Source: Omnitrophica WOR_2 bacterium RIFCSPHIGHO2_02_FULL_48_11 (GTDB lineage Bacteria; Omnitrophota; Gorgyraeia; Zapsychrales; GWA2-47-8). From it: 35,324 nucleotides of DNA. Every line of letters starts with the position of its first letter. The stretch's first letter is position 1. The notes beneath the pieces are model-generated. The model did not search any database. It was not told the DNA's origin and worked only from the letters and a program-made list of their open reading frames with translations. This document shows positions 588 to 10,657 of this stretch, in pieces. The DNA lies in NCBI GenBank assembly GCA_001805615.1, contig MHGP01000017.1:11900-47223 (forward strand), given 5' to 3'. The position numbers were made by a program, and so were the translations under genes.

Positions 588-1073
588 TCACTTATTGATC
601 TCCACATTGATCATCGCCGATTTAAAAGCCGCCAGCAAAAATTCCACCGCCACCTGAACGTCGCTGATCAGATACCGGTTCCCGTACTTGACGAGATCCG
701 GCGCCAGCTGAACCGCGCTATAACACAAACGCCCCACCTCTAAAGGAACCGCCCGTGCCCCTTTCAAGGCCGCCTTTTTCGCCTTGGCATCGCCTTGACC
801 GGCCTGCGCCACTTTCAAATAAGCCTCCGCGTCCAGGTCCACCAGTTCCAAAAACCTTTTTCGCAGCTGTTCGCTTTTATTTAAAATTTTCTGGATTTTA
901 TTCTCGATAGCCTGGGGTTTCCCCTTGCCCAAAGAATAATTGGCGACCATCGATAAAAGCGCCGCGCCTAATGCCGCGGTCAGTGCCGCGGCCGAGCCTC
1001 CCCCGGGAACAGGCGTCCGCTGCGAAAGAACGTCGAGGTATTGTGTAAGCGTAAAACTTTTAAAATTTGACAT
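588..1073 (-). CDS. fchA: Cyclodeaminase/cyclohydrolase family protein (FchA-like methenyl-THF cyclohydrolase)
   Basis: A 161-aa protein of the formiminotransferase-cyclodeaminase C-terminal family. It shows the signature TPVPGGGSAAALTAALG near the N-terminus, then the mainly helical body typical of the family (about 180-210 aa, so this one is short). Members include formimido-THF cyclodeaminase and the stand-alone methenyl-THF cyclohydrolase FchA. The gene directly precedes a folD that has lost the cyclohydrolase residues and lies in the same transcript, so a cyclohydrolase role fits best; cyclodeaminase remains possible. I start it at the ATG at 1071-1073, which gives MSNFKSF and has AGGAAAA about 10 nt upstream. 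A TTG 27 nt further upstream would add a poor N-terminal extension. No formiminotransferase domain is attached. Confidence 0.85.
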   Translation of the reverse strand: MSNFKSFTLTQYLDVLSQRTPVPGGGSAAALTAALGAALLSMVANYSLGKGKPQAIENKIQKILNKSEQLRKRFLELVDLDAEAYLKVAQAGQGDAKAKKAALKGARAVPLEVGRLCYSAVQLAPDLVKYGNRYLISDVQVAVEFLLAAFKSAMINVEINK

Positions 1074-1100
1074 TACTGGTCTTTTCCTAACCAATAACAA

Positions 1101-1316
1101 TGATGGAAACCAGTATTAGACCTTTGCCATCTGGAAGAAAAGGCCTGGTATTGACTTCCTTATTATTTGGTTGTACAAAGGTCAATAAGGTTCAACCGGC
1201 GGAAGCGAAGATATTGTTAGCACGGGCCTGCACAAAAATAGTAATGAATTTATGATAGCGTAAAGCATTATCCTTTTCAACAACTACCTGGAAATTTTCT
1301 CATAAGAAAAATAATC
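1101..1316. other. Leader/intergenic region between yraN and fchA
   Basis: 216 nt without an ORF that looks coding. On the minus strand, just upstream of fchA, a weak stem can be drawn from ACCAG/CTGGT with an inner GCCTTT/AAAGGT (about 1092-1155). I could not match it to a folate riboswitch. The plus strand carries a TTGACT-17-TACAAA arrangement at 1152-1180 that resembles a promoter, but no gene lies downstream in that direction. Confidence 0.3.
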
Positions 1317-1688
1317 TCAGCAAGGAAAATCAAAAGCATTTTTGATGATCTCGACCTGTTCTGCCTCGCCGGCATTGGGCGAGACCGCCATCACATCAAA
1401 ACGCGCCGGCCGCTCCAGCAATCTTTTGTATTTCAAATAACTCAGGGCCAGCCGGGCGAGCTTGAACTGTTTGGGCCGGGAGATCGCCTCGAACGGCGTG
1501 CCGCACAACGCCGTGCGGCGGGTCTTCACTTCGATAAAACAGATGACACCCGCATCCAGCGCAATGATATCCACCTCACCCAGTTTGTTGCGAAAATTCC
1601 GCTCCAAAATTTTATAACACTGACGCTGCAAGAATTCCACCGCCAGATCTTCGCCATGCTGCCCTAATTCTTTTTTAGATCGGTTCAT
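1317..1688 (-). CDS. yraN: YraN/UPF0102 endonuclease-like protein
   Basis: A 123-aa protein of the UPF0102 (YraN) family, a restriction-endonuclease-like fold related to Holliday-junction resolvases; the cellular role is not settled. Visible hallmarks are GQHGEDLAVEFLQ at the N-terminus, LERNFRNKLGEVDIIA (the GEID core) around residues 28-43 and FIEVKTRR (the ExK motif) around 50-57. Length is typical. Its ATG overlaps the rnhB stop by one base (TAATG at 1686-1690), so it is translationally coupled to rnhB. The rplS-rnhB-yraN order is the common bacterial one. Confidence 0.93.
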   Translation of the reverse strand: MNRSKKELGQHGEDLAVEFLQRQCYKILERNFRNKLGEVDIIALDAGVICFIEVKTRRTALCGTPFEAISRPKQFKLARLALSYLKYKRLLERPARFDVMAVSPNAGEAEQVEIIKNAFDFPC

Positions 1689-2332
1689 TAAACAGAGTTA
1701 AATGTCTTTCGATGAATTTGCGAAAGGCCGTGTTTTTTGATGGCTAATTTATGCTCCGGGGTCGGATAACCTTTGTGTTTGCTAAAACCATATTGCGGAT
1801 ACACTTTATCATACTCATTGAGGATACGGTCCCGGGTCACCTTGGCGATGATCGAAGCGCAGGCGATCGAAAGGCTCAGATCATCCCCACCGATAATCGT
1901 CTTGTAGGCAACCCGCAAATCTGTTTTGAAAGAATTTCCGTCGATCAAAAGGCATACCTTGCGCCGCAGATCAGGCGCGGCTTCATTGGTCAAAATTTTT
2001 CCCAGCAATTCCGTTACCGCGATGTTCATCGCCTGGTAGGTCGCCTGCAAGATATTGCATTGGTCGATGATGCCTTCGCTCACCAGGCCCACACCCACCT
2101 GGGCATTGGCCTGGATCTCGTCAAAGGCTTTTTCCCGCTGCAGAGCACTGATCTTTTTGGAATCCCGGATGGTGTTCTGGAAAGATTCACTTTTAAGAAA
2201 AACCGCGGCAGCGACCACCGGCCCGGCAAGCGGACCGCGGCCTGCCTCGTCCACGCCGATAATAAAATCAAATCCTTCCCGTTTGGCTTGCTGTTCGTAT
2301 GTCAGCATCGAGAAAGCTGTTGATTGGGTCAT
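1688..2332 (-). CDS. rnhB: Ribonuclease HII
   Basis: A 214-aa RNase HII, which nicks the RNA strand of RNA/DNA hybrids and removes misincorporated ribonucleotides. The active-site motif GVDEAGRGPLAGPVVAAAV supplies D28 and E29; LLIDGNSF gives D131 and the IIGGDD segment gives D150. ASIIAKVTRDR and GFSKHKGYPTPEH are the usual C-terminal family motifs. The ATG at 2330-2332 is used; a second Met at residue 9 is possible, since residues 1-8 are not conserved. It follows rplS after a 63-nt gap and overlaps yraN by one base. Confidence 0.95.
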   Translation of the reverse strand: MTQSTAFSMLTYEQQAKREGFDFIIGVDEAGRGPLAGPVVAAAVFLKSESFQNTIRDSKKISALQREKAFDEIQANAQVGVGLVSEGIIDQCNILQATYQAMNIAVTELLGKILTNEAAPDLRRKVCLLIDGNSFKTDLRVAYKTIIGGDDLSLSIACASIIAKVTRDRILNEYDKVYPQYGFSKHKGYPTPEHKLAIKKHGLSQIHRKTFNSV

Positions 2333-2395
2333 GGATAAAAACTTAAGGATTAAACCGCTGAATTTTTACGAAGGGAATGACCTGCAAAAAAACTA

Positions 2396-2794
2396 TTAGG
2401 CCGCAGGCTGTGCCGGTTGTGCCGGCTTTGCCGTTGGTTCGGCATGATCGGTTTTTACACTGACTTTATTGCCCACGCGGTCACGCAGATAATATAATTT
2501 GGCGCGTCTGACCAGGCCCTTATGGACAACTTTGAGGCTTTCGATCACCGGTGAATGGATGGGAAACGTTCTTTCCACCCCTTCCCCGAATGAAACTTTT
2601 CTCACCGTAAAGGTGGATTTGACACCGCTGCCGGTCTTACGGATGACAATTCCTTCAAAAGGATGCAGACGGACTTTATCGGATTCCGCGACCTTAACTT
2701 TCATTTTGACGGTATCGCCGACGTTGAAGGCGGGCAGATCCGCGCGCAGATATTGTTTTTCGATATTTTTGATTGTTTCAGCTATACTGACCAT
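2396..2794 (-). CDS. rplS: 50S ribosomal protein L19
   Basis: A 132-aa L19, a component of the large subunit near the interface with the 30S. Family features are [15 protein letters not shown], the [23 protein letters not shown] block, [13 protein letters not shown]-like text (here [13 protein letters not shown]) and [13 protein letters not shown]19 is usually about 115 aa; the extra length is a C-terminal Ala/Pro-rich tail ([15 protein letters not shown]), probably disordered. The start has a strong Shine-Dalgarno (GGAAAGGA, 6 nt before ATG). trmD, its usual upstream neighbour, lies about 5.9 kb away beyond an accessory island. Confidence 0.97.
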
Positions 2795-2844
2795 TTTAAA
2801 TCCTTTCCATGAAGCCCCACAGCTAAAGCCGTAAGACCTAAATT

Positions 2845-2992
2845 ATGACCCGTCTTCGCCCAATGGCTTATGCGTTGGGCTTCGCCGGGTTCATCCGCCT
2901 TATTCAGATAAGGGCGAACATCCGCCGAAGCCTCTTTCTTCTTTCGCCTTCCTCGACCGGTAAGCTCGCGGTATTCGGCGTAGGCGGATGAA
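2845..2992 (-). repeat. Structured palindromic repeat, copy A
   Basis: A compact hairpin module at 2848-2890 (outer stem ACCCG/CGGGT, inner stem GCCCAA/TTGGGC) is followed by a segment bounded by the 10-bp inverted words TCATCCGCCT (2891-2900) and AGGCGGATGA (2982-2991). Nested CGCCGAA/TTCGGCG arms lie inside. The same layout in the opposite orientation occurs at 4915-5056. It fills most of the non-coding gap between rplS and the 70-aa gene. I see no ORF in it. Confidence 0.6.
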
Positions 2993-3075
2993 TACTTGGC
3001 TTATCAAGGCCGCTTTTTTCTGCGATTGAGTGAACAAATTTAACACATAAGTCAGCCTCTGTCAATTCGGATTTT

Positions 3076-3288
3076 TTACAACTTAAAATTCTTGCCGGAG
3101 GACTTCAGGCTGGATATTTCGACTCTTGAAAAAACCTTATGGACGGTCGTTAAGAATTTCAGATAAGCATCAAAGGAAGGGTTGGACGCTGCTGTCTCGA
3201 CGCTGCTTTGGGCTCTGCGGAAAGAATCCCTTCTCTTCGCGCACCCGGCGTCTTGGAGCATTTCTTTTTTTTCTTTCGTGCTAAGCAT
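3076..3288 (-). CDS. Small hypothetical protein coupled to a nucleotidyltransferase
   Basis: A 70-aa charged protein I do not recognise: MLSTKEKKEMLQDAG, then a basic CAKRRDSFRRAQ stretch, then a helix-like FDAYLKFLTTVHKVFSR. Its ATG is one base after the stop of the nucleotidyltransferase gene (3290-3835), so the two are translationally coupled. The arrangement recalls two-gene toxin-antitoxin modules with a nucleotidyltransferase partner, but the small protein has no HEPN motif (no RxxxxH) and no recognisable DNA-binding domain. Real-gene status rests on the coupling and clean reading frame; function is unknown. Confidence 0.6.
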   Translation of the reverse strand: MLSTKEKKEMLQDAGCAKRRDSFRRAQSSVETAASNPSFDAYLKFLTTVHKVFSRVEISSLKSSGKNFKL

Positions 3289-3289
3289 C

Positions 3290-3835
3290 TTATGTTCTCT
3301 TCAGCAGTTCGGCCAATTCTTTTTCACGGCCGAACAATGCGAAATATTCCTTTAAAAGTTTGAGGTCCAACCGGTCTTTGTGGAGTTTCAGGAGCTTTTC
3401 AATGTCCGCCGAATCCTGCGTATGCCGGGCGGGGTCATTGGCCATGGCTTGAACTTTTAAGCCGATAATGTCCTCGGGGATCAGGACCTTGACCGTCAAT
3501 TTGTTGTTTAGTATGCCACATTCCTGCGCCCTTTTCAACATATTCTTCGTGTAGTGCCGGTGGGCGTGCAAAAAGTCGATCTGGCCCAATTCCGTGAGCG
3601 CCCCCTTAAAATTCGAGACATCCGCGCTTTCATGCAGCAGCTCATAGCCCAAGCTGAGGAGCAATTTCTTGACCTTGGGCATATCCTCTTTCAGGATCAA
3701 GATATCGATATCCTGGGTCGCCCGGGTATATCCGGCGGCATGCAGGGCGAACCCTCCCATCAGGGCGTAGCAGACCCCCTGCTTTTCAAAATTCTCCAGT
3801 AAAAACTTAAAAACCTTCTCGAAATCCATGGGCAT
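3290..3835 (-). CDS. Nucleotidyltransferase-fold protein (AbiEii/DUF6036-like)
   Basis: A 181-aa protein with the minimal nucleotidyltransferase signature: ALMGGFALHAAGYTRATQDID near residues 23-43, where the GG and the TxDID acidic pair are the core, and a third acidic residue is probably the D of GQIDFLHA. The C-terminal half (LIPEDIIGLKVQAMANDP...DSADIEKLL) is typical of AbiEii-like and related nucleotidyltransferases. The long version begins at a TTG with no clear Shine-Dalgarno; I chose the ATG at 3833-3835, with another ATG six bases later as an alternative. It is followed one base downstream by the 70-aa partner. Family fold is likely; a toxin or defence role is only inferred from context. 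Confidence 0.8.
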   Translation of the reverse strand: MPMDFEKVFKFLLENFEKQGVCYALMGGFALHAAGYTRATQDIDILILKEDMPKVKKLLLSLGYELLHESADVSNFKGALTELGQIDFLHAHRHYTKNMLKRAQECGILNNKLTVKVLIPEDIIGLKVQAMANDPARHTQDSADIEKLLKLHKDRLDLKLLKEYFALFGREKELAELLKRT

Positions 3836-3914
3836 ACAGAGGGCTATTCTACCGTAAAGCAAAATTTTCGGCAAATGTATCTTTGTGCTAAAAAATCAGA
3901 GGAAGGAGCTCCCT

Positions 3915-4010
3915 ATGGCTTGGCTGCATAAATTTTTCCTGGAACTTGTTTCGGCTGGTCATTACGCCGGAACGCTTATTTTTCCCAGCGTGAAAAATTT
4001 CGCTCGATGA
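3915..4010 (+). CDS. Possible 31-aa small ORF with a strong Shine-Dalgarno
   Basis: The only plausible plus-strand start in the window: AAGGAG at 3903-3908, a 6-nt spacer, then ATG at 3915 and a 31-codon frame ending at TGA 4008-4010. The peptide starts MAWLHKFFLELVSAG and has no recognisable domain. Part of it overlaps the left arm of the palindromic element at 3943-4325, so the frame may be accidental. Confidence 0.12.
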   Translation: MAWLHKFFLELVSAGHYAGTLIFPSVKNFAR

Positions 4011-4325
4011 AAACCTTCGCTCGTCCCCACTGCTTCGCTTTGCGAAGCAAAGCGTTGGGGACACCTTGCCCGTTTCGGCCTCGCAACATCCTGAAAAAAT
4101 TTATTCCGCCAATCCATTTTTTATCTCAAGATTCTGGATTGCTTTTGTAGGGACGTTTGTCCGACAAGCGGGCACGGTCTCCGCCACCAGCGGAGGAGCG
4201 CGGAGGACAACCGAACGCAGTTTTGTCTCGCCGGGACAAAACAAGTGATCCCGAAAAAAGCAATTCAGAATCTTTTTATAGCCAATGAGCATTCCGGCGT
4301 AAGGGCTAGCCGAAACAGTCAAGTG
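3943..4325. repeat. MITE-like palindromic element rich in hairpins
   Basis: Imperfect terminal inverted repeats at 3943-3972 and 4292-4325 share TTCCGGCGTAA and AGCCGAAACA as arms. Inside lie a near-perfect palindrome at 4023-4062 (arms CGCTTTGC/GCAAAGCG, flanked by CCCCA/TGGGG), a second inverted pair at 4130-4148/4256-4274 (AAGATTCTGGATTGCTTTT against AAAAGCAATTCAGAATCTT), CTCCGC/GCGGAG around 4180 and TTTTGTC/GACAAAA around 4223-4243. No transposase and no convincing ORF are present. It fills the 585-nt gap between the nucleotidyltransferase gene and the YwqK-like gene. Confidence 0.5.
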
Positions 4326-4420
4326 CTCCCACGCAACTTAAAGGCTAGCCGAAATGTTCAAGTGTTCCCGCGCAACTTTAGGGCTAGCCGAAACATTCAA
4401 ACATTCCCACAAAAAAATTT
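4304..4420. repeat. 39-bp tandem repeat, about three units
   Basis: Three units begin with the 8-bp palindrome GGCTAGCC at 4304, 4343 and 4382, giving an exact 39-nt period. Each continues with GAAA, then a CAAG/GTGTTCCC-like block; units 1 and 2 end in GCAACTTWA, and unit 3 decays into an A/T tract. The first unit overlaps the right arm of the palindromic element, as if that arm had been amplified. Confidence 0.8.
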
Positions 4421-4795
4421 TCATTTTCCCCGCATCAGGACTCTGGAGAATAAAAACCAACCCCCCGTCCCTAAAACGGCAACAATGATCCAGAACCACG
4501 GACGGAACAGGAAAGCGATCGCTCCCATATCCCGGGCCGGATCATTGGCTCTTTTACTGATAAGAATATCGTCTTTAAAATAAAATTTGTCTTTAACCGT
4601 TCCGTCTTTTTTATACTCCGTGGTCAACCCTTCCAATTTGCCGTCTTTATACTTGGAATCATATTGTTTTTCACCCGTGTCATAGTAAGTCTTATGCTTG
4701 CCGTCGCTCATTGGTTCCTCGCCATAAGCTAAACCGCCGGCCAGCAGGCTTAATCCTACGCCCGCCAACAACAGCCAAACATAATTTTTATGCAT
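4421..4795 (-). CDS. Exported YwqK-like repeat protein with a C-terminal membrane anchor
   Basis: From the ATG at 4793-4795 this is a 124-aa protein with a signal peptide (MHKNYVWLLLAGVGLSLLAG, cleavage near AYG), two short repeats of the YwqK/MORN-like type (KTYYDTGEKQYDSKYKDGKLEG, then TTEYKKDGTVKDKFYFKDD), and a C-terminal hydrophobic helix (FRPWFWIIVAVLGTGGWFLF) followed by basic residues. YwqK-type repeats are often labelled antitoxin-like, but the exported topology argues for an envelope role. A GTG start 63 nt upstream would put a basic extension before the signal peptide and is less likely. No strong Shine-Dalgarno is visible. Function unknown. Confidence 0.7.
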   Translation of the reverse strand: MHKNYVWLLLAGVGLSLLAGGLAYGEEPMSDGKHKTYYDTGEKQYDSKYKDGKLEGLTTEYKKDGTVKDKFYFKDDILISKRANDPARDMGAIAFLFRPWFWIIVAVLGTGGWFLFSRVLMRGK

Positions 4796-4914
4796 ATCAA
4801 AGAGAATAAATCCGCTCCTCCGTGGGAAATTCTTAAAGGGGTGAATCTTACGAAGCACTTTTATTATAACAGAAGCGGGTGGAAAGCAATGCGGAAAAGA
4901 GGATAATTACGGGG

Positions 4915-5056
4915 TCATCCGCCTTCGCAGGAGATCATTGCGCGTGGAGGAATGCCAAAAGATGGATCAATGGCTACGGCGGATTCCGCCAATAATATTG
5001 AGGCGGATGAACCCGGCGAAGCCAAAAGTGAAAACATTTTGGCGAAGACGGGTCAT
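4915..5056 (+). repeat. Structured palindromic repeat, copy B (inverted relative to copy A)
   Basis: Same architecture as 2845-2992 in the opposite orientation: TCATCCGCCT at 4915-4924 and AGGCGGATGA at 5001-5010 bound a segment with an internal GGCGGA/TCCGCC palindrome, followed by the hairpin module at 5011-5053 (ACCCG outer stem, inner GCCAAAA/TTTTGGC). The outer text is shared with copy A, but the inner stem differs in sequence while keeping its pairing. Part of the 363-nt gap between the YwqK-like gene and the first ORF6N gene. Confidence 0.6.
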
Positions 5057-5057
5057 A

Positions 5058-5135
5058 TCCAGGTGCCCCGGGCTTTGCCCGTGGGACTCCATTTTCCTGG
5101 GATCTGCCGCAACTTAAAGCCCGGAGGCAAAGTTG
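5058..5135. repeat. Two further hairpins downstream of the ORF6N gene
   Basis: The first hairpin (5058-5102) has an outer CCAGG/CCTGG stem enclosing an 11-bp imperfect stem around GGGC-TTT-GCCC, with 9 of 11 positions paired. The second (5110-5135) pairs CAACTT with AAGTTG and has an inner GCC-CGGA-GGC stem. Neither is followed by a T-run on the minus strand, so they are not classic terminators. Confidence 0.45.
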
Positions 5136-5158
5136 GAAACGATTTAAATTATTCTCTA

Positions 5159-5677
5159 CTAATCAGTATGAAATCCTATCTTTCGCTTGGACGTCTCCGG
5201 TGGCGGCGTCATGAGCTGACGGATAGCATCGAATACCACTTTAAATTGGGTGTCATATTTCTTTTCCATCTGCTCAAATTTACGAGCCAAATCCTTATGG
5301 CTTGCGAGTATTTCACGCAACTTCACAAAAGCCCGCATAATAGCGATGTTCACATCAATCGCCCGCTCGCTGTTTAAAACACTGGAAAGCATGGCAACTC
5401 CCTGCTCGGTAAAAGCAAAAGGGCGATATTTAATATTTTGACCTTGTTTCAAGGTCGCAAATTGCGACCTTGAAAGTAAAGTCTCGGCCTCAGTAGTAGT
5501 CAACTCAAACATAAAATCCTCAGGAAATCTTCTTAAATTTCTTCTGACTTGTTCCTTTAACCGCTTCGTCGACACGCCATAAAGCTCCGCCAAATGCTTA
5601 TCCAGCATCACCTTGTGCCCACGGATGAAAAAAATTTTGTTTTCGATGATTTCAGATGGAATTGAGACAGGCTTCAT
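5159..5677 (-). CDS. ORF6N (KilA-N-like) domain protein, paralogue 1
   Basis: A 172-aa protein with an N-terminal ORF6N domain (residues about 8-95): IENKIFFIRGHKVMLDKHLA, then RRNLRRFPEDFMFELT and FAFTEQGVAMLSSVLNSERA. ORF6N is a DNA-binding domain first seen in phage antirepressor-like proteins. The C-terminal half is a probable coiled coil (FVKLREILASHKDLARKFEQM). A close paralogue lies at 7994-8515 with the same ends (MK..SIPSE at the start, KRKIGFHTD at the end). The ATG has AAGGGGAATCTT directly before it, and both paralogues share this leader. A 27-bp-plus palindrome sits inside the coding sequence at 5447-5475. Targets are unknown. Confidence 0.9.
   Translation of the reverse strand: MKPVSIPSEIIENKIFFIRGHKVMLDKHLAELYGVSTKRLKEQVRRNLRRFPEDFMFELTTTEAETLLSRSQFATLKQGQNIKYRPFAFTEQGVAMLSSVLNSERAIDVNIAIMRAFVKLREILASHKDLARKFEQMEKKYDTQFKVVFDAIRQLMTPPPETSKRKIGFHTD
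5447..5475. repeat. Perfect palindrome inside ORF6N paralogue 1
   Basis: 14-bp arms (TTTCAAGGTCGCAA and its complement) around a single central A. It overlaps an extra ACCTTG-TTT-CAAGGT hairpin at 5441-5455. It encodes the SRSQFATLKQ segment. The paralogue keeps a palindrome at the same codons with compensating base changes. Confidence 0.85.
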
Positions 5678-5760
5678 AAGATTCCCCTTTCGTTAAAACA
5701 AATTGCCGGCAGTGGAGGACTGCCAGTTATAGGGAAATCGAGGAGCGTTTAAATAATATC
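5678..5760 (-). promoter_or_regulatory. Upstream region of ORF6N paralogue 1 (shared element and hairpin)
   Basis: The 17-nt word CTCCTCGATTTCCCTAT (minus strand, plus positions 5729-5745) also occurs upstream of the second ORF6N gene. Its end forms a -10-like TATAAC, with TTTAAA 16 nt upstream as a weak -35. Between this and the Shine-Dalgarno lies a perfect GGCAGT-GGAGG-ACTGCC hairpin (5708-5724) that could be an operator; the second copy lacks it. Confidence 0.45.
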
Positions 5761-5855
5761 ACTTAAATCTACGCGAGGCAAAATAATTTTTGGGGAGGAA
5801 AATTTTACAGGAGCTCTACGATTGAAAAACAGAACCGTCGCCTTTTCTACAGCAG

Positions 5856-6383
5856 TCAGCGTGTTGCCAGATAAAATATAGTAAATAGGATCGCAAAAAT
5901 TATAGCCGCGGCCGGAGTTATTTTTTGAAGAGAATGCATTCTCGTTTCCATTTCCTTCCTCTTTTCCAACGGCAAAGCATCATATTTTACGCTTCCGCCG
6001 AATTTCCACCAAAGAGAAGTTATCGGATAGAGAAGAAAGAACACTCCTCCGGCCAATAACAGCTTCCGCTCGAACGGAGAAATATCCGCCATTTCCACAA
6101 GACCTAAATATAAAGAAATACCGCCAAAGATCAAGCTGCCGACAAGATATAAAGAAGACTGAGCCTTGTTCGGGGATAAAATGGGGAGAAGCCCGTTGTT
6201 GACGCTCCGGCGCATCTGATACAGTTCAAAGACGATCACGTACCCGCAAAACAGCACCGTTATGATGAAAACATCAAGTGTTAGTTTCCCGGCAACGAAA
6301 TAAGCCCAAAAAACGATCAGCGCAACGGCCAGGCACACGACACACACGAATAAAAAAAATATTTTTGAGAATGTTTTAATCAT
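5856..6383 (-). CDS. Hypothetical integral membrane protein
   Basis: A 175-aa protein I do not recognise. About five hydrophobic segments are visible: FFLFVCVVCLAVALIVFWAY near the N-terminus, FIITVLFCGYVIVFELY, LYLVGSLIFGGISLYLGL, LLLAGGVFFLLYPITSLWW and AAAIIFAILFTIFYLA at the C-terminus. Short basic loops (QMRRS, LEKRKEMETR) suggest cytoplasmic segments. I use the ATG at 6381-6383, preceded by AGGGAAAG; an ATG ten codons upstream is in frame. It lies downstream of the attC-like site at 6442-6501. Function unknown. Confidence 0.7.
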   Translation of the reverse strand: MIKTFSKIFFLFVCVVCLAVALIVFWAYFVAGKLTLDVFIITVLFCGYVIVFELYQMRRSVNNGLLPILSPNKAQSSLYLVGSLIFGGISLYLGLVEMADISPFERKLLLAGGVFFLLYPITSLWWKFGGSVKYDALPLEKRKEMETRMHSLQKITPAAAIIFAILFTIFYLATR

Positions 6384-6441
6384 ATTTATCTTTCCCTTCT
6401 CCTTTCCCGTCATTTCCAGGTACCCAGTCCTTAGGTCTTAG

Positions 6442-6501
6442 GTTAACCGGCTGAAGGAGCGCGCAATGACCCGAAGGTCAATGTTGAACGCGGGGTTAGG
6501 T
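6442..6501 (-). repeat. attC-like recombination site (integron cassette type)
   Basis: Read on the minus strand, directly after the lipoprotein stop (6 nt), the order is ACCTAAC (fits R'' consensus RYYYAAC, 6495-6501), CCCGC spacer, GTTCAAC (L''-like, 6483-6489), a TGACC-TTCG-GGTCA stem-loop, then GTTAAC (L'-like, 6442-6447), which pairs with L'' leaving one extrahelical base as in genuine attC sites. The expected R' (GTTRRRY) is absent downstream, but the cassette's 5' side carries GTTAGGT at 6839-6845, the exact complement of the R'' box. Confidence 0.5.
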
Positions 6502-6507
6502 GGTAAA

Positions 6508-6807
6508 TCACCAGTTCCTAACAAATCTAGGGCAGCCAGTATAAGACCACGTAACTATTTTTCCTGTAGAGTCAGTTACGAACGTTTGTCGGCATTGTTG
6601 AACACCATACTGGTTGGAACTAAAAGTGGTCCAAGTATAGGTGGCTCCACCATCAGTGCGGTTGATTCTTAACTCAGGCGCACCCCATGCAGCGGTTACA
6701 TCGTCAATAGAGCGACCCTCCCAAGAACTCATTACGGTGTTCATCGAAGCGCAGCCCACCATAAATGCAACAGCAAGCAGCATCGGCGTGCAGTATCGAG
6801 TCATCAT
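6508..6807 (-). CDS. Small lipoprotein, putative integron-cassette gene
   Basis: A 99-aa protein beginning MMTRYCTPMLLAVAFMVGCASM, a signal peptide with a lipobox-like MVGC, so probably a lipoprotein. The mature part (SSWEGRSIDDVTAAWGAPE, then YTWTTFSSNQYGVQQCRQTF) resembles small proteobacterial lipoproteins with a WxGxxxxDxxxxWGxP motif; function unknown. GGAG lies 4 nt before the first ATG and 7 nt before the second, so either may be used (6807 or 6804); a GTG further upstream is unlikely. The stop is 6 nt from an attC-like site, the typical packing of an integron cassette. Its style differs from neighbouring core genes, consistent with transfer. Confidence 0.75.
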   Translation of the reverse strand: MMTRYCTPMLLAVAFMVGCASMNTVMSSWEGRSIDDVTAAWGAPELRINRTDGGATYTWTTFSSNQYGVQQCRQTFVTDSTGKIVTWSYTGCPRFVRNW

Positions 6808-6838
6808 CGTTCTCCGTGTTGTTCTTAACAATGCGGTC

Positions 6839-6845
6839 ACCTAAC
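6839..6845 (-). other. Candidate 5' cassette junction (GTTAGGT core site)
   Basis: GTTAGGT fits the integron R' consensus GTTRRRY and is the exact complement of the ACCTAAC box after the lipoprotein gene. If cut between G and TT, the sequence from here to the downstream attC-like site would form one cassette of about 400 bp. Confidence 0.4.
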
Positions 6846-6881
6846 AATTAATATACGACTGGCCCAACGGCTATCGCGAAA

Positions 6882-6906
6882 GGGTCTGACCCCAAATGGG
6901 ACACCC
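6882..6906. repeat. GGGTCAGACCC palindromic motif
   Basis: GGGTC-T-GACCC (6882-6892) followed by CAAATGGGACACCCC. On the minus strand it reads TTTGGGGTCAGACCC, a motif I recall seeing repeatedly beside Y1 (IS200/REP-associated) transposase genes in other genomes. No such transposase is in view. Confidence 0.4.
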
Positions 6907-6945
6907 CTTTGCATATGAAAACTGAGGCAGCACCCGATTCCCTAT

Positions 6946-7953
6946 TTAAAATTTTACCGCCAAGCGTTCGTTTAATAACTCCTGATTGAGAAAGACAGTG
7001 TTTAGTATATCGTCTTTCGTATGTCGTGAAAAATACCACACGTCCACTAAATACCGTCCGTATTTGTCGTCCTTATGCGTCTTAATAATCACAAAATCAT
7101 TCGGCTTGATCTTGGATTCGATGAAACGTTTAGCGCGCTGGCCTGCCGCCGTCAAAATTTCCGCGCAGTCGATGCCGCGCAAGCGCAATTTTTGTTTGGT
7201 CCAGGTGTTAAAACCCAAATCAATGTGAGCTACCAGCGTGTCAGCGTCGATAATCCGTTCGACCGTGACTTTAAAGGTGTAGAGATCTTTGACCGCGCGG
7301 TCAGTGGATTTTATTTTGTAAGTCTCGTCCGTTTTCACCGATTCGACGATCGTACCATTGTCGAATTTCGTTAAGGATTGAGTTGGAATTTGCCGCCAGA
7401 CGTCAAACCCGCAATCGACAAATTTGTAACCTTCGACCGGCTGTAATGAAGGGGGTTCGATAATTGCGTAGGTGTAGAGTTCTCCACGCTCGCTTTTAAG
7501 TTGCGGAATCGGCGCGTTGGGGTCGATCGCAAACGGTTTGCGCACGGTTATTTCTTTTTGCAGTTCCCGGCTGGTCAAATTTCTATTGAGGGCTTTTTGA
7601 ATCAAAGCGCGCCTGTCAGCTGGATTCGGTAAGGTTAAAAGACTGCGATAATGGGTCCAGGTCAATTTCTGCCGCGCGGCGGAAATTGGGAATTCCTTGG
7701 AAAACCGGACAGCCCGCTGCAGAACATCAACACTGACATCCAGATCTTTGGCCAGCCGTTCATAAAGATGAACGCCGTACTGCGCGCGGTCTTTGCCCTG
7801 CAAAATATAACCGGAAATATATTTTCCGACTTTCCAGTACATTTGGGCTTGGGTTTGTTGGATTATTTGACGGCCGGAGGCGATTTCGTTCTTGATCGCC
7901 TTGACCAGCTGCGGGTAAGATTGGCGGGAGGCTGTGAGGACCGAACTTTTCAC
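6946..7953 (-). CDS. DUF1016 (YhcG-like) N-terminal domain fused to a staphylococcal-nuclease domain
   Basis: A 335-aa fusion. Residues about 10-140 match the DUF1016/YhcG N-terminal domain (IIQQTQAQMYWKVGKYI, YGVHLYERLAKDLDV, LTWTHYRSLLTLPN). Residues about 225-335 form a staphylococcal-nuclease-like domain: RIIDADTLVAHI, LRLRGIDCAEI and DDKYGRYLVDVWY. The equivalents of nuclease D21, R35, D40, E43 and R87 all appear present, so it should be catalytically competent; only T41 is changed (to C). DUF1016 proteins usually carry a C-terminal PDDEXK nuclease, so this one has exchanged its nuclease module. No signal peptide, hence cytoplasmic. It begins with GTG; AGGCGA precedes it. It lies between the two ORF6N genes. 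Confidence 0.88.
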   Translation of the reverse strand: MKSSVLTASRQSYPQLVKAIKNEIASGRQIIQQTQAQMYWKVGKYISGYILQGKDRAQYGVHLYERLAKDLDVSVDVLQRAVRFSKEFPISAARQKLTWTHYRSLLTLPNPADRRALIQKALNRNLTSRELQKEITVRKPFAIDPNAPIPQLKSERGELYTYAIIEPPSLQPVEGYKFVDCGFDVWRQIPTQSLTKFDNGTIVESVKTDETYKIKSTDRAVKDLYTFKVTVERIIDADTLVAHIDLGFNTWTKQKLRLRGIDCAEILTAAGQRAKRFIESKIKPNDFVIIKTHKDDKYGRYLVDVWYFSRHTKDDILNTVFLNQELLNERLAVKF

Positions 7954-7993
7954 TCGCCTAATCTAGCATTTCAGAGGAAAAATGTAAAGCTAC

Positions 7994-8515
7994 CTAATCG
8001 GTGTGAAAACCAATCTTCCGTTTAGGCGGTTCCAGCGGTGTTGCCATAAGCCGGCGAATAGCATCAAAAATAACTTCTATTTTTTCATCGTGCTTGCCGA
8101 GCCGCGCCTCAAGATCTTTAAATTTAAGCGCCAGCTCCTTGTGACTGGAGAGCACTTCCCGCAACTTCACAAAGGCCCTCATAATGGCGATGTTCACATC
8201 AATCGCCCGCTCGCTGTTAAGAACACTCGAAAGCATGGCAATCCCCTGTTCGGTAAAAGCGTAGGGTAAATACTTAATATTTTGCCCTTTCTTCAAGGTC
8301 ACAATTTGTGACCTTGAAGATTGCGCCTCTTTCCAGGTTAACTGAAACATAAAGTCTTCAGGAAATCTTCTTAAATTCCGCTTAACCGCCTGAATTAAGA
8401 CTTTTGTTTGTACATCATATAACTCAGCCAAATGTATGCTGAGCATCACCTTGTGCCCACGGATCAAATAAATTTTACTTTCGACTACTTCAGATGGAAT
8501 TGAGGCAGACTTCAT
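7994..8515 (-). CDS. ORF6N (KilA-N-like) domain protein, paralogue 2
   Basis: A 173-aa paralogue of 5159-5677. ORF6N domain at residues about 8-93: VESKIYLIRGHKVMLSIHLA, VKRNLRRFPEDFMFQLT, YAFTEQGIAMLSSVLNSERA. The coiled-coil C-terminus ends in the same KRKIGFHTD. The region from FTEQG to FVKLRE is almost identical between the two, while the recognition-like segment differs (DVQTKVLIQA against GVSTKRLKEQ), so the DNA targets may differ. ATG with the same GGGGAATCT leader. Like its paralogue it carries a long palindrome within the coding sequence (8290-8320). It lies immediately upstream of the DUF1016-nuclease gene (40-nt gap), possibly in one transcript. Confidence 0.9.
   Translation of the reverse strand: MKSASIPSEVVESKIYLIRGHKVMLSIHLAELYDVQTKVLIQAVKRNLRRFPEDFMFQLTWKEAQSSRSQIVTLKKGQNIKYLPYAFTEQGIAMLSSVLNSERAIDVNIAIMRAFVKLREVLSSHKELALKFKDLEARLGKHDEKIEVIFDAIRRLMATPLEPPKRKIGFHTD
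8290..8320. repeat. Perfect palindrome inside ORF6N paralogue 2
   Basis: 15-bp arms (TCTTCAAGGTCACAA and its complement) around one central T, encoding SRSQIVTLKK. Compared with paralogue 1, G is A on one arm and C is T on the other, so pairing is kept. Confidence 0.85.
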
Positions 8516-8657
8516 GAGATTCCCCTTTCTAATGTGGTAGCAGCTTGCGAATAGGGAAATCGAGGAGGGAACTACAAAACAAATTTACCACGCGATTTTG
8601 CGAATGTCAAATGTGTACTTTCCCAGGCGACTGTCTTGAGGTTCCCGGTCCAACCGC
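8516..8657 (-). promoter_or_regulatory. Upstream region of ORF6N paralogue 2
   Basis: The 17-nt word CTCCTCGATTTCCCTAT (plus positions 8551-8567) is identical to that upstream of paralogue 1. A TTGTAG 18 nt before TATTCG could be a weak promoter. The rest of the gap to the trmD stop shows nothing I can name. Confidence 0.4.
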
Positions 8658-9329
8658 TTATTTCAATAAATCCGGCCTAAATTTTTTAGTGCGTTTGAGG
8701 GATTCTTGATGACGCCAGGCATGGATGTCTTTATGATTGCCGGAAAGTAAAACCGCCGGCACTTTCATCCCTTTAAAATCCGCCGGACGGGTGTATTGCG
8801 GATACTCCAATAAATTATTTTCAAAAGATTCGGACTCCAGCGAGGCTTCTTTGCCCAAAACACCCGGGATAAGCCGCGTGATGGCATCGACCACGACCAT
8901 CGCCGGCAGTTCTCCCCCGGTCAACACATAATCGCCGATCGAAATACTCTCATCCACCAGCGCCGCCACCCGCTCATCCACGCCTTCATAATGGCCGCAG
9001 AGGATGATAAGGTTTTTTTCCTTGGCTAAATTTTTCGCGATCTTTTGACTGAAAGGTTTTCCGCTCGGTGTGGTCAGGATCACTTTGGCCTTGGTGCGGC
9101 CTTTGATCTTTTTTATCGCGCTAAAGATCGGTTCCGGCAGCATCACCATGCCCGGCCCGCCGCCAAACGGCCGGTCATCGACGCTGCGGTGTTTGCCCTT
9201 GGTGTAATCGCGCAGGTCGTGGACTTTGATCGCGACCTTTTTCTTCTCTTGCGCGCGCTTGATGATGGACTCATCCGTCAACGCCGAGAACATGTTGGGA
9301 AAAATCGTTAGGATATTGAAAGTGAGCAT
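8658..9329 (-). CDS. trmD: tRNA (guanine-N1-)-methyltransferase
   Basis: A 223-aa TrmD, the SPOUT-family enzyme that methylates G37 at N1 using S-adenosylmethionine and thereby prevents frameshifting. Hallmarks are [17 protein letters not shown] at the start, [45 protein letters not shown] (the trefoil-knot SAM site) and [17 protein letters not shown] start at the ATG at 9327-9329, which matches the usual N-terminus; a GTG four codons upstream is in frame. Normally trmD sits beside rplS; here 5.9 kb of accessory DNA follows it. Its leader is a long inverted repeat of 8-bp words. Confidence 0.96.
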
Positions 9330-9334
9330 ATGTA

Positions 9335-9416
9335 ATGTCACAAGGTCACAGAGTCACAATGTCACATGTAAAACTTTGCAACAACTTGTGACCTTGTATC
9401 TTTGTGACTTTGCGAC
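9335..9416. repeat. Inverted array of 8-bp repeats between tgt and trmD
   Basis: Four tandem octamers of the form GTCACANN, a 16-nt centre, then four octamers of the inverted form NTTGTGAC (some degenerate, including TTTGCGAC). Together they form an imperfect hairpin of about 80 nt that fills the gap between the tgt stop and the trmD start. The AAGGTCACA word also occurs in the palindromes inside the ORF6N genes. Confidence 0.75.

Positions 9417-10657
<1,241 letters not shown>

Follow-up and report, generated by a model that had tools for sequence, protein, structure and literature searches.

A probable stranded gene cassette with a 3'-truncated attC site in an Omnitrophota chromosome

The lipoprotein gene and the boxes around it

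The window analysed here, a 35,324-nt stretch of contig MHGP01000017.1 of Omnitrophica WOR_2 bacterium RIFCSPHIGHO2_02_FULL_48_11, belongs to a genome (G000) of 2.01 Mb in 95 contigs that is 85.7% complete. The genes rplS and trmD, adjacent in 25 of 29 relatives, stand 5.9 kb apart here, with an accessory stretch between them that contains the candidate cassette described below. The genes of this stretch (window positions 2795-8657) code for an AbiEii-like nucleotidyltransferase, two ORF6N-domain paralogues, a DUF1016+SNase protein, a MORN-like protein and orphans. G029 and the same-family genome G001 likewise have rplS and trmD apart from each other.

The candidate cassette holds a single gene for a 99-aa lipoprotein, read from the minus strand like all of its features (Table 1), with a GGAG Shine-Dalgarno motif at 6815-6812 and GGAGAACG before the ATG. 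No Pfam or NCBIfam family was found for the protein, and its predicted fold (pLDDT 71, from a two-sequence alignment) is weakly similar to BamE (best E 0.044). The nearest relative is a protein of a Nitrosospira MAG (L012; 53% identity), whose gene has no attC nearby and lies outside any recognisable cassette. Searches of plasmids, phages and viral contigs yielded distant relatives only, one of the weak phage relatives being annotated as an outer membrane assembly factor, and a nucleotide search of the cassette against plasmids returned nothing useful. The gene is absent from 334 genomes of the same phylum save for two very weak matches. It looks like a small lipoprotein gene acquired in this phylum, of a family that is not confined to cassettes.

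Table 1. Features of the candidate cassette and its edges (window coordinates), and the two intact lone cassettes of the same order
Feature	Position	Strand	Remarks
R' box GTTAGGT, putative cassette 5' boundary	6845-6839	-	exact reverse complement of R'' ACCTAAC (6495-6501)
99-aa lipoprotein gene, ATG 6807, stop codon 6510-6508	6807-6508	-	lipobox MVGC; BamE-like fold, weak
R'' box ACCTAAC	6501-6495	-	6 nt past stop codon; fits RYYYAAC
L'' box GTTCAAC	6489-6483	-	5 nt past R''; same letters as L'' of the IMP-13 attC (L073) and of 26 viral contigs
Central stretch, 35 nt, hairpin TGACC-TTCG-GGTCA	6448-6482	-	does not continue the L''/L' stem
L' box GTTAAC	6447-6442	-	pairs with GTT-c-AAC of L''; GCCG directly before L' fits the class (p=0.003)
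Repeat A CCTAAGACCTAAGGACTGGGTACCTGG	6416-6442	-	in place of attC spacer and R'; copies on C38 (two) and C90
Repeat B GGGGTCAGACCC	6882-6893	-	just outside 5' boundary; three genome copies: C17, C38, C90
G008 intact cassette, HNH-like cargo	contig C68 (284 kb) 156504-156564; L173 2505-2565		R1 45.7 bits
G027 intact cassette	contig C17:10319-10373; L182		R1 30 bits

An earlier sequence-only reading had proposed an isolated integron-type cassette at this place. The boxes that it named all occur on the minus strand with exactly the letters given, including the exact complementarity of the upstream GTTAGGT to R'', a word that occurs in 3 of 942 ORF upstream regions. If this is a cassette, it would start with TTAGGT, and its 5' junction is compatible with a crossover at G/TTAGGT. 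The lipoprotein ORF is bracketed by an RYYYAAC-type R'' and its complementary R', and the L''/L' pair carries a single unpaired base and is separated from R'' by the 5 nt CCCGC (allowed range 4-7 nt). The length of the central stretch falls within the 16-40 nt seen in attC sites with the same L boxes. The downstream R', which the earlier reading had called unrecognisable, is indeed absent: no GTTRRRY was found at the expected 5-7 nt 3' of L', nor anywhere through the end of the next gene.

In the place of spacer and R', L' is followed by host repeat DNA, CCTAAGACCTAAGG. This dispersed repeat A (CCTAAGNCCTAAGGACYGGGTACC) begins directly after GTTAA and has further copies on contig C38 (CCTAAGTCCTAAGGACCGGGTATCCGG and CCTAAGCCCTAAGGACCGGGTACCTGA) and a partial one on C90. 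Since the bases after GTTAA belong to the repeat, CTAAG is most likely host DNA and no part of an attC spacer, with L' as the end of the cassette. The missing R' would be most simply explained by a deletion or replacement at this junction in association with the repeat. Repeats A and B occur together at three places of the genome, on C17 (the window), on C38 at about 8337-9902 and on C90 at about 864-4059. On C90, repeat A is followed after ~0.15 kb by a partly masked ORF resembling the start of a REP-associated transposase; a Pfam search with its 38 readable residues did not confirm this assignment.

attC models, folding and sites with the same L boxes

A full-site attC covariance model built from 35 attCs (R1) detected attCs in 16 of the 18 integrase-bearing genomes of the phylum, with scores up to 57.7 bits. 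The site at the lipoprotein gene was the best R1 match in the window, yet with 12.5 bits and an E-value of 0.37 in 35 kb; it was not significant when the whole genome was searched, and no second attC was found elsewhere in this genome. With a half-site model from which spacer and R' were omitted (R2), the same site reached 23.8 bits (E 1.6e-4), a score among those of genuine sites and well apart from the next match in the window (10.8 bits), albeit with a biased score, many of the sites used to train R1 and R2 having been selected by the window's own L letters. The site was listed by a direct R2 search of the contig and not listed by the genome-wide search, in which 150 of 467 candidates were scored. 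Because R2 had been trained partly on the L letters of the window, a de-biased half-site model (R3) was built from 87 attCs, none of them with GTTCAAC or a terminal GTTAAC. The site was again the best match in the window, and its significance was gone (10.3 bits, E 0.39, background), whereas most genuine sites of the GTTCAAC class retain about 20-40 bits with R3. This result lowered our confidence in the cassette reading. When put to attC models, as the earlier reading had proposed, the site is therefore background for R1 and R3 and real for the class-specific but biased R2; with the model evidence split in this way, the site is at best damaged.

The strand of the window site does not form the attC hairpin with extrahelical bases, its minimum-energy fold being a different local hairpin, whereas with the same settings the attC of the IMP-13 cassette folds fully. 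The proposed R''-L''-L' layout accordingly holds for the boxes and their order and not for a recognisable attC. A strong local hairpin, GTTAGGAACTGGTGATTTACCACCTAAC (6522-6495, minus strand; GTTAGG...CCTAAC; z -4.05), spans the stop codon of the lipoprotein gene and has R'' as its 3' arm. A search of the window and the region against Rfam returned no match.

The L boxes themselves recur in genuine attC sites. The attC of the IMP-13 cassette of the Pseudomonas aeruginosa plasmid pCHUAC-04_IMP (L073 5128-5188), which was located before any window-derived pattern was used, contains GCCTAACCTGCGGTTCAACTCGGACG...CCCGCCGGTTAACCTCAACGTTAGGC, and a pattern scan retrieved 26 viral contigs carrying GTTCAAC/GTTAAC attCs with intact R' boxes. 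GTTCAAC and GCCGGTTAAC are common to the window site and this class. Of the flanking letters, those before L' fit the class (the p value is in Table 1), those after L'' do not (p=0.30), and the combined value is p=0.006. By sequence, the IMP-13 attC is the closest known site: it too belongs to a cassette with one short ORF, R' at the 5' edge and R''-5 nt-L'' right after the stop codon, and it shares GTTCAAC/GTTAAC, the same single unpaired base and GCCG before L'. In contrast to it, the window site is devoid of spacer and R' 3' of L', its central stem is broken and no integron surrounds it. The 26 viral-filed contigs (L076-L101) carry genuine attC sites, several of them as multi-site arrays, and could represent either cassettes on viral DNA or misfiled cellular contigs.

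Integrases and lone cassettes in the phylum

As the earlier reading had it, the putative cassette stands without an integrase. No protein of this genome exceeded the TIGR02249 cut-off, the best two matches being XerD and XerC; at 85.7% completeness, absence of IntI from the organism is unproven. Genuine integron integrases were found in 18 of 384 genomes of the phylum, and attCs in 8 of the 54 genomes of the order. Of these 8, at least two, G008 and G027, each contain a single intact cassette with an exact R'/R'' pair bracketing one ORF (Table 1), and both are listed without IntI. They resemble the locus in the window in the single cassette, the bracketing pair and the lack of a listed IntI, but their attCs are complete and their cargo genes are unrelated to the lipoprotein. 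We entertain, with considerable doubt, the broader idea that genomes of this order regularly harbour lone cassettes without an integrase, which would arrive routinely through transient integrases or another recombinase, and that the window displays an end stage in which the site decays and the gene stays.

Alternative explanations and a likely history

In order to estimate how often such an arrangement arises by luck, we searched for ORFs with RYYYAAC no more than about 50 nt from the stop codon, its exact complement upstream of the start, and a six-pair L''/L' with a bulge at the fourth base. This ORF-anchored layout was found at 1 of the 142 ORFs of the window, namely the lipoprotein ORF, and at none of 19,460 ORFs whose upstream regions had been permuted. 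Multiplying the separate rates gives 4.4e-5 per ORF, and luck would yield roughly 0.1-0.2 cases per genome if the letters of the L boxes are disregarded. Real arrays display the layout at 10 of 260 ORFs in Gemmatirosa and at 5 of 684 in integrase-bearing relatives. The layout at the lipoprotein ORF is thus moderately above chance.

This expectation bears on the possibility that a native or acquired small lipoprotein gene merely has flanks with short attC-like words, picked out of much scanned sequence. Such a coincidence would agree with the coarse layout being expected at that rate by luck, with the background scores of R1 and of the de-biased R3, with the failure of the attC fold, with the finding of neither IntI nor a second attC in the genome and with a nearest homolog devoid of an attC. 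It would have to accommodate L boxes that are those of a genuine attC class, with a fitting GCCG before L', four correctly ordered boxes packed closely around a single short ORF, and an order in which lone cassettes are demonstrably present, and we regard it as unlikely. Far less probable still is a reading in which a small non-autonomous transposable element has GTTAGGTG and CACCTAAC as its terminal inverted repeats, or in which ACCTAAC is an arm of a gene-end hairpin. The two repeats are identical over 8 bases, the hairpin at 6522-6495 folds strongly and other dispersed repeats lie on both sides, all of which would suit these readings; however, the outer flanks show no target duplication (AATT versus CCCG), no second copy of the stretch exists in the genome, no T-run follows the hairpin, and neither reading explains GTTCAAC/GTTAAC at attC spacing. 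A MITE was rejected on the first two of these grounds.

The reading that we favour, and consider reasonably probable, is that of a stranded lone cassette with a 3'-truncated and probably dead attC. The earlier proposal of an isolated, decayed cassette without integrase thus remains the best available reading, backed by the R'/R'' bracket, the genuine-attC L boxes, the failure to find IntI and the lone cassettes of the order; an intact attC is not part of it. We do not class the locus as a functional cassette because R' and the hairpin were both tested and neither was found, and it is probably a fossil, not a working mobile gene. The suggested insertion at a secondary G/TT target is not shown: the right-hand junction falls within a dispersed repeat beyond L' and is not an integrase crossover. 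For an attG-type insertion, in which both junctions are expected at G|WT-type recombination points, the 5' junction G/TTAGGT is compatible and the 3' junction is lost in repeat A.

Under the stranded-cassette reading, one cassette would have integrated alone into the chromosome, outside an integron, when an integrase supplied from elsewhere recombined its attC with a non-integron target; alternatively, the cassette might be the remainder of a longer array. The integrated cassette would have been bounded by G/TTAGGT on its 5' side and by R''-L''-L'-spacer-G on its 3' side. Spacer, R' and some adjoining DNA would later have been lost or replaced at the junction with repeat A, while the centre of the attC would have diverged. 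The gene would be stranded because it is without R', foldable hairpin or integrase, and probably either persists or is decaying as an ordinary gene for an outer-membrane lipoprotein with a BamE-like predicted fold. No empty site could be demonstrated since the flanking ORF (5856-6413) is unique, nothing in 53 relatives matching it, and since the rplS-trmD region has itself been rearranged in the same-family genome G001.

The locus is a decayed new case of phenomena that are already known, namely CALIN and single-attC elements (PMC9024848), truncated attCs and attG insertion. Integration of cassettes outside integrons at attG sites is attributed to Loot et al. (2024, Nat Microbiol 9:228) where that work is cited in PMC12901181 and PMC12444791. 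Such insertions, as described in these citing sources, and the CALIN and single-attC elements (PMC9024848) share with the window a lone cassette in a chromosomal place without an integrase; in comparison with attG insertions as cited there, the 3' junction of the window is not at the recombination point, which makes an attG insertion unreadable, and its attC is not intact. In fused cassettes with a truncated attC (PMC4670013), partial loss of the attC likewise deprives a gene of its mobility as a separate unit, but in that case two cassettes of an integron are joined by the truncation, whereas in the window it abuts a dispersed host repeat.

If our reading is right, a cassette gene became fixed in the chromosome once its recombination site had decayed, and the intact lone cassettes of the order can serve as the state before. 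Remnants of this kind would be missed by standard attC searches, which depend on both R boxes and, in their default setting, report a cluster only from two sites up. The weight of a single example is modest; with the order-wide pattern, the way in which cassettes spread outside integrons could become open to testing beyond laboratory E. coli.
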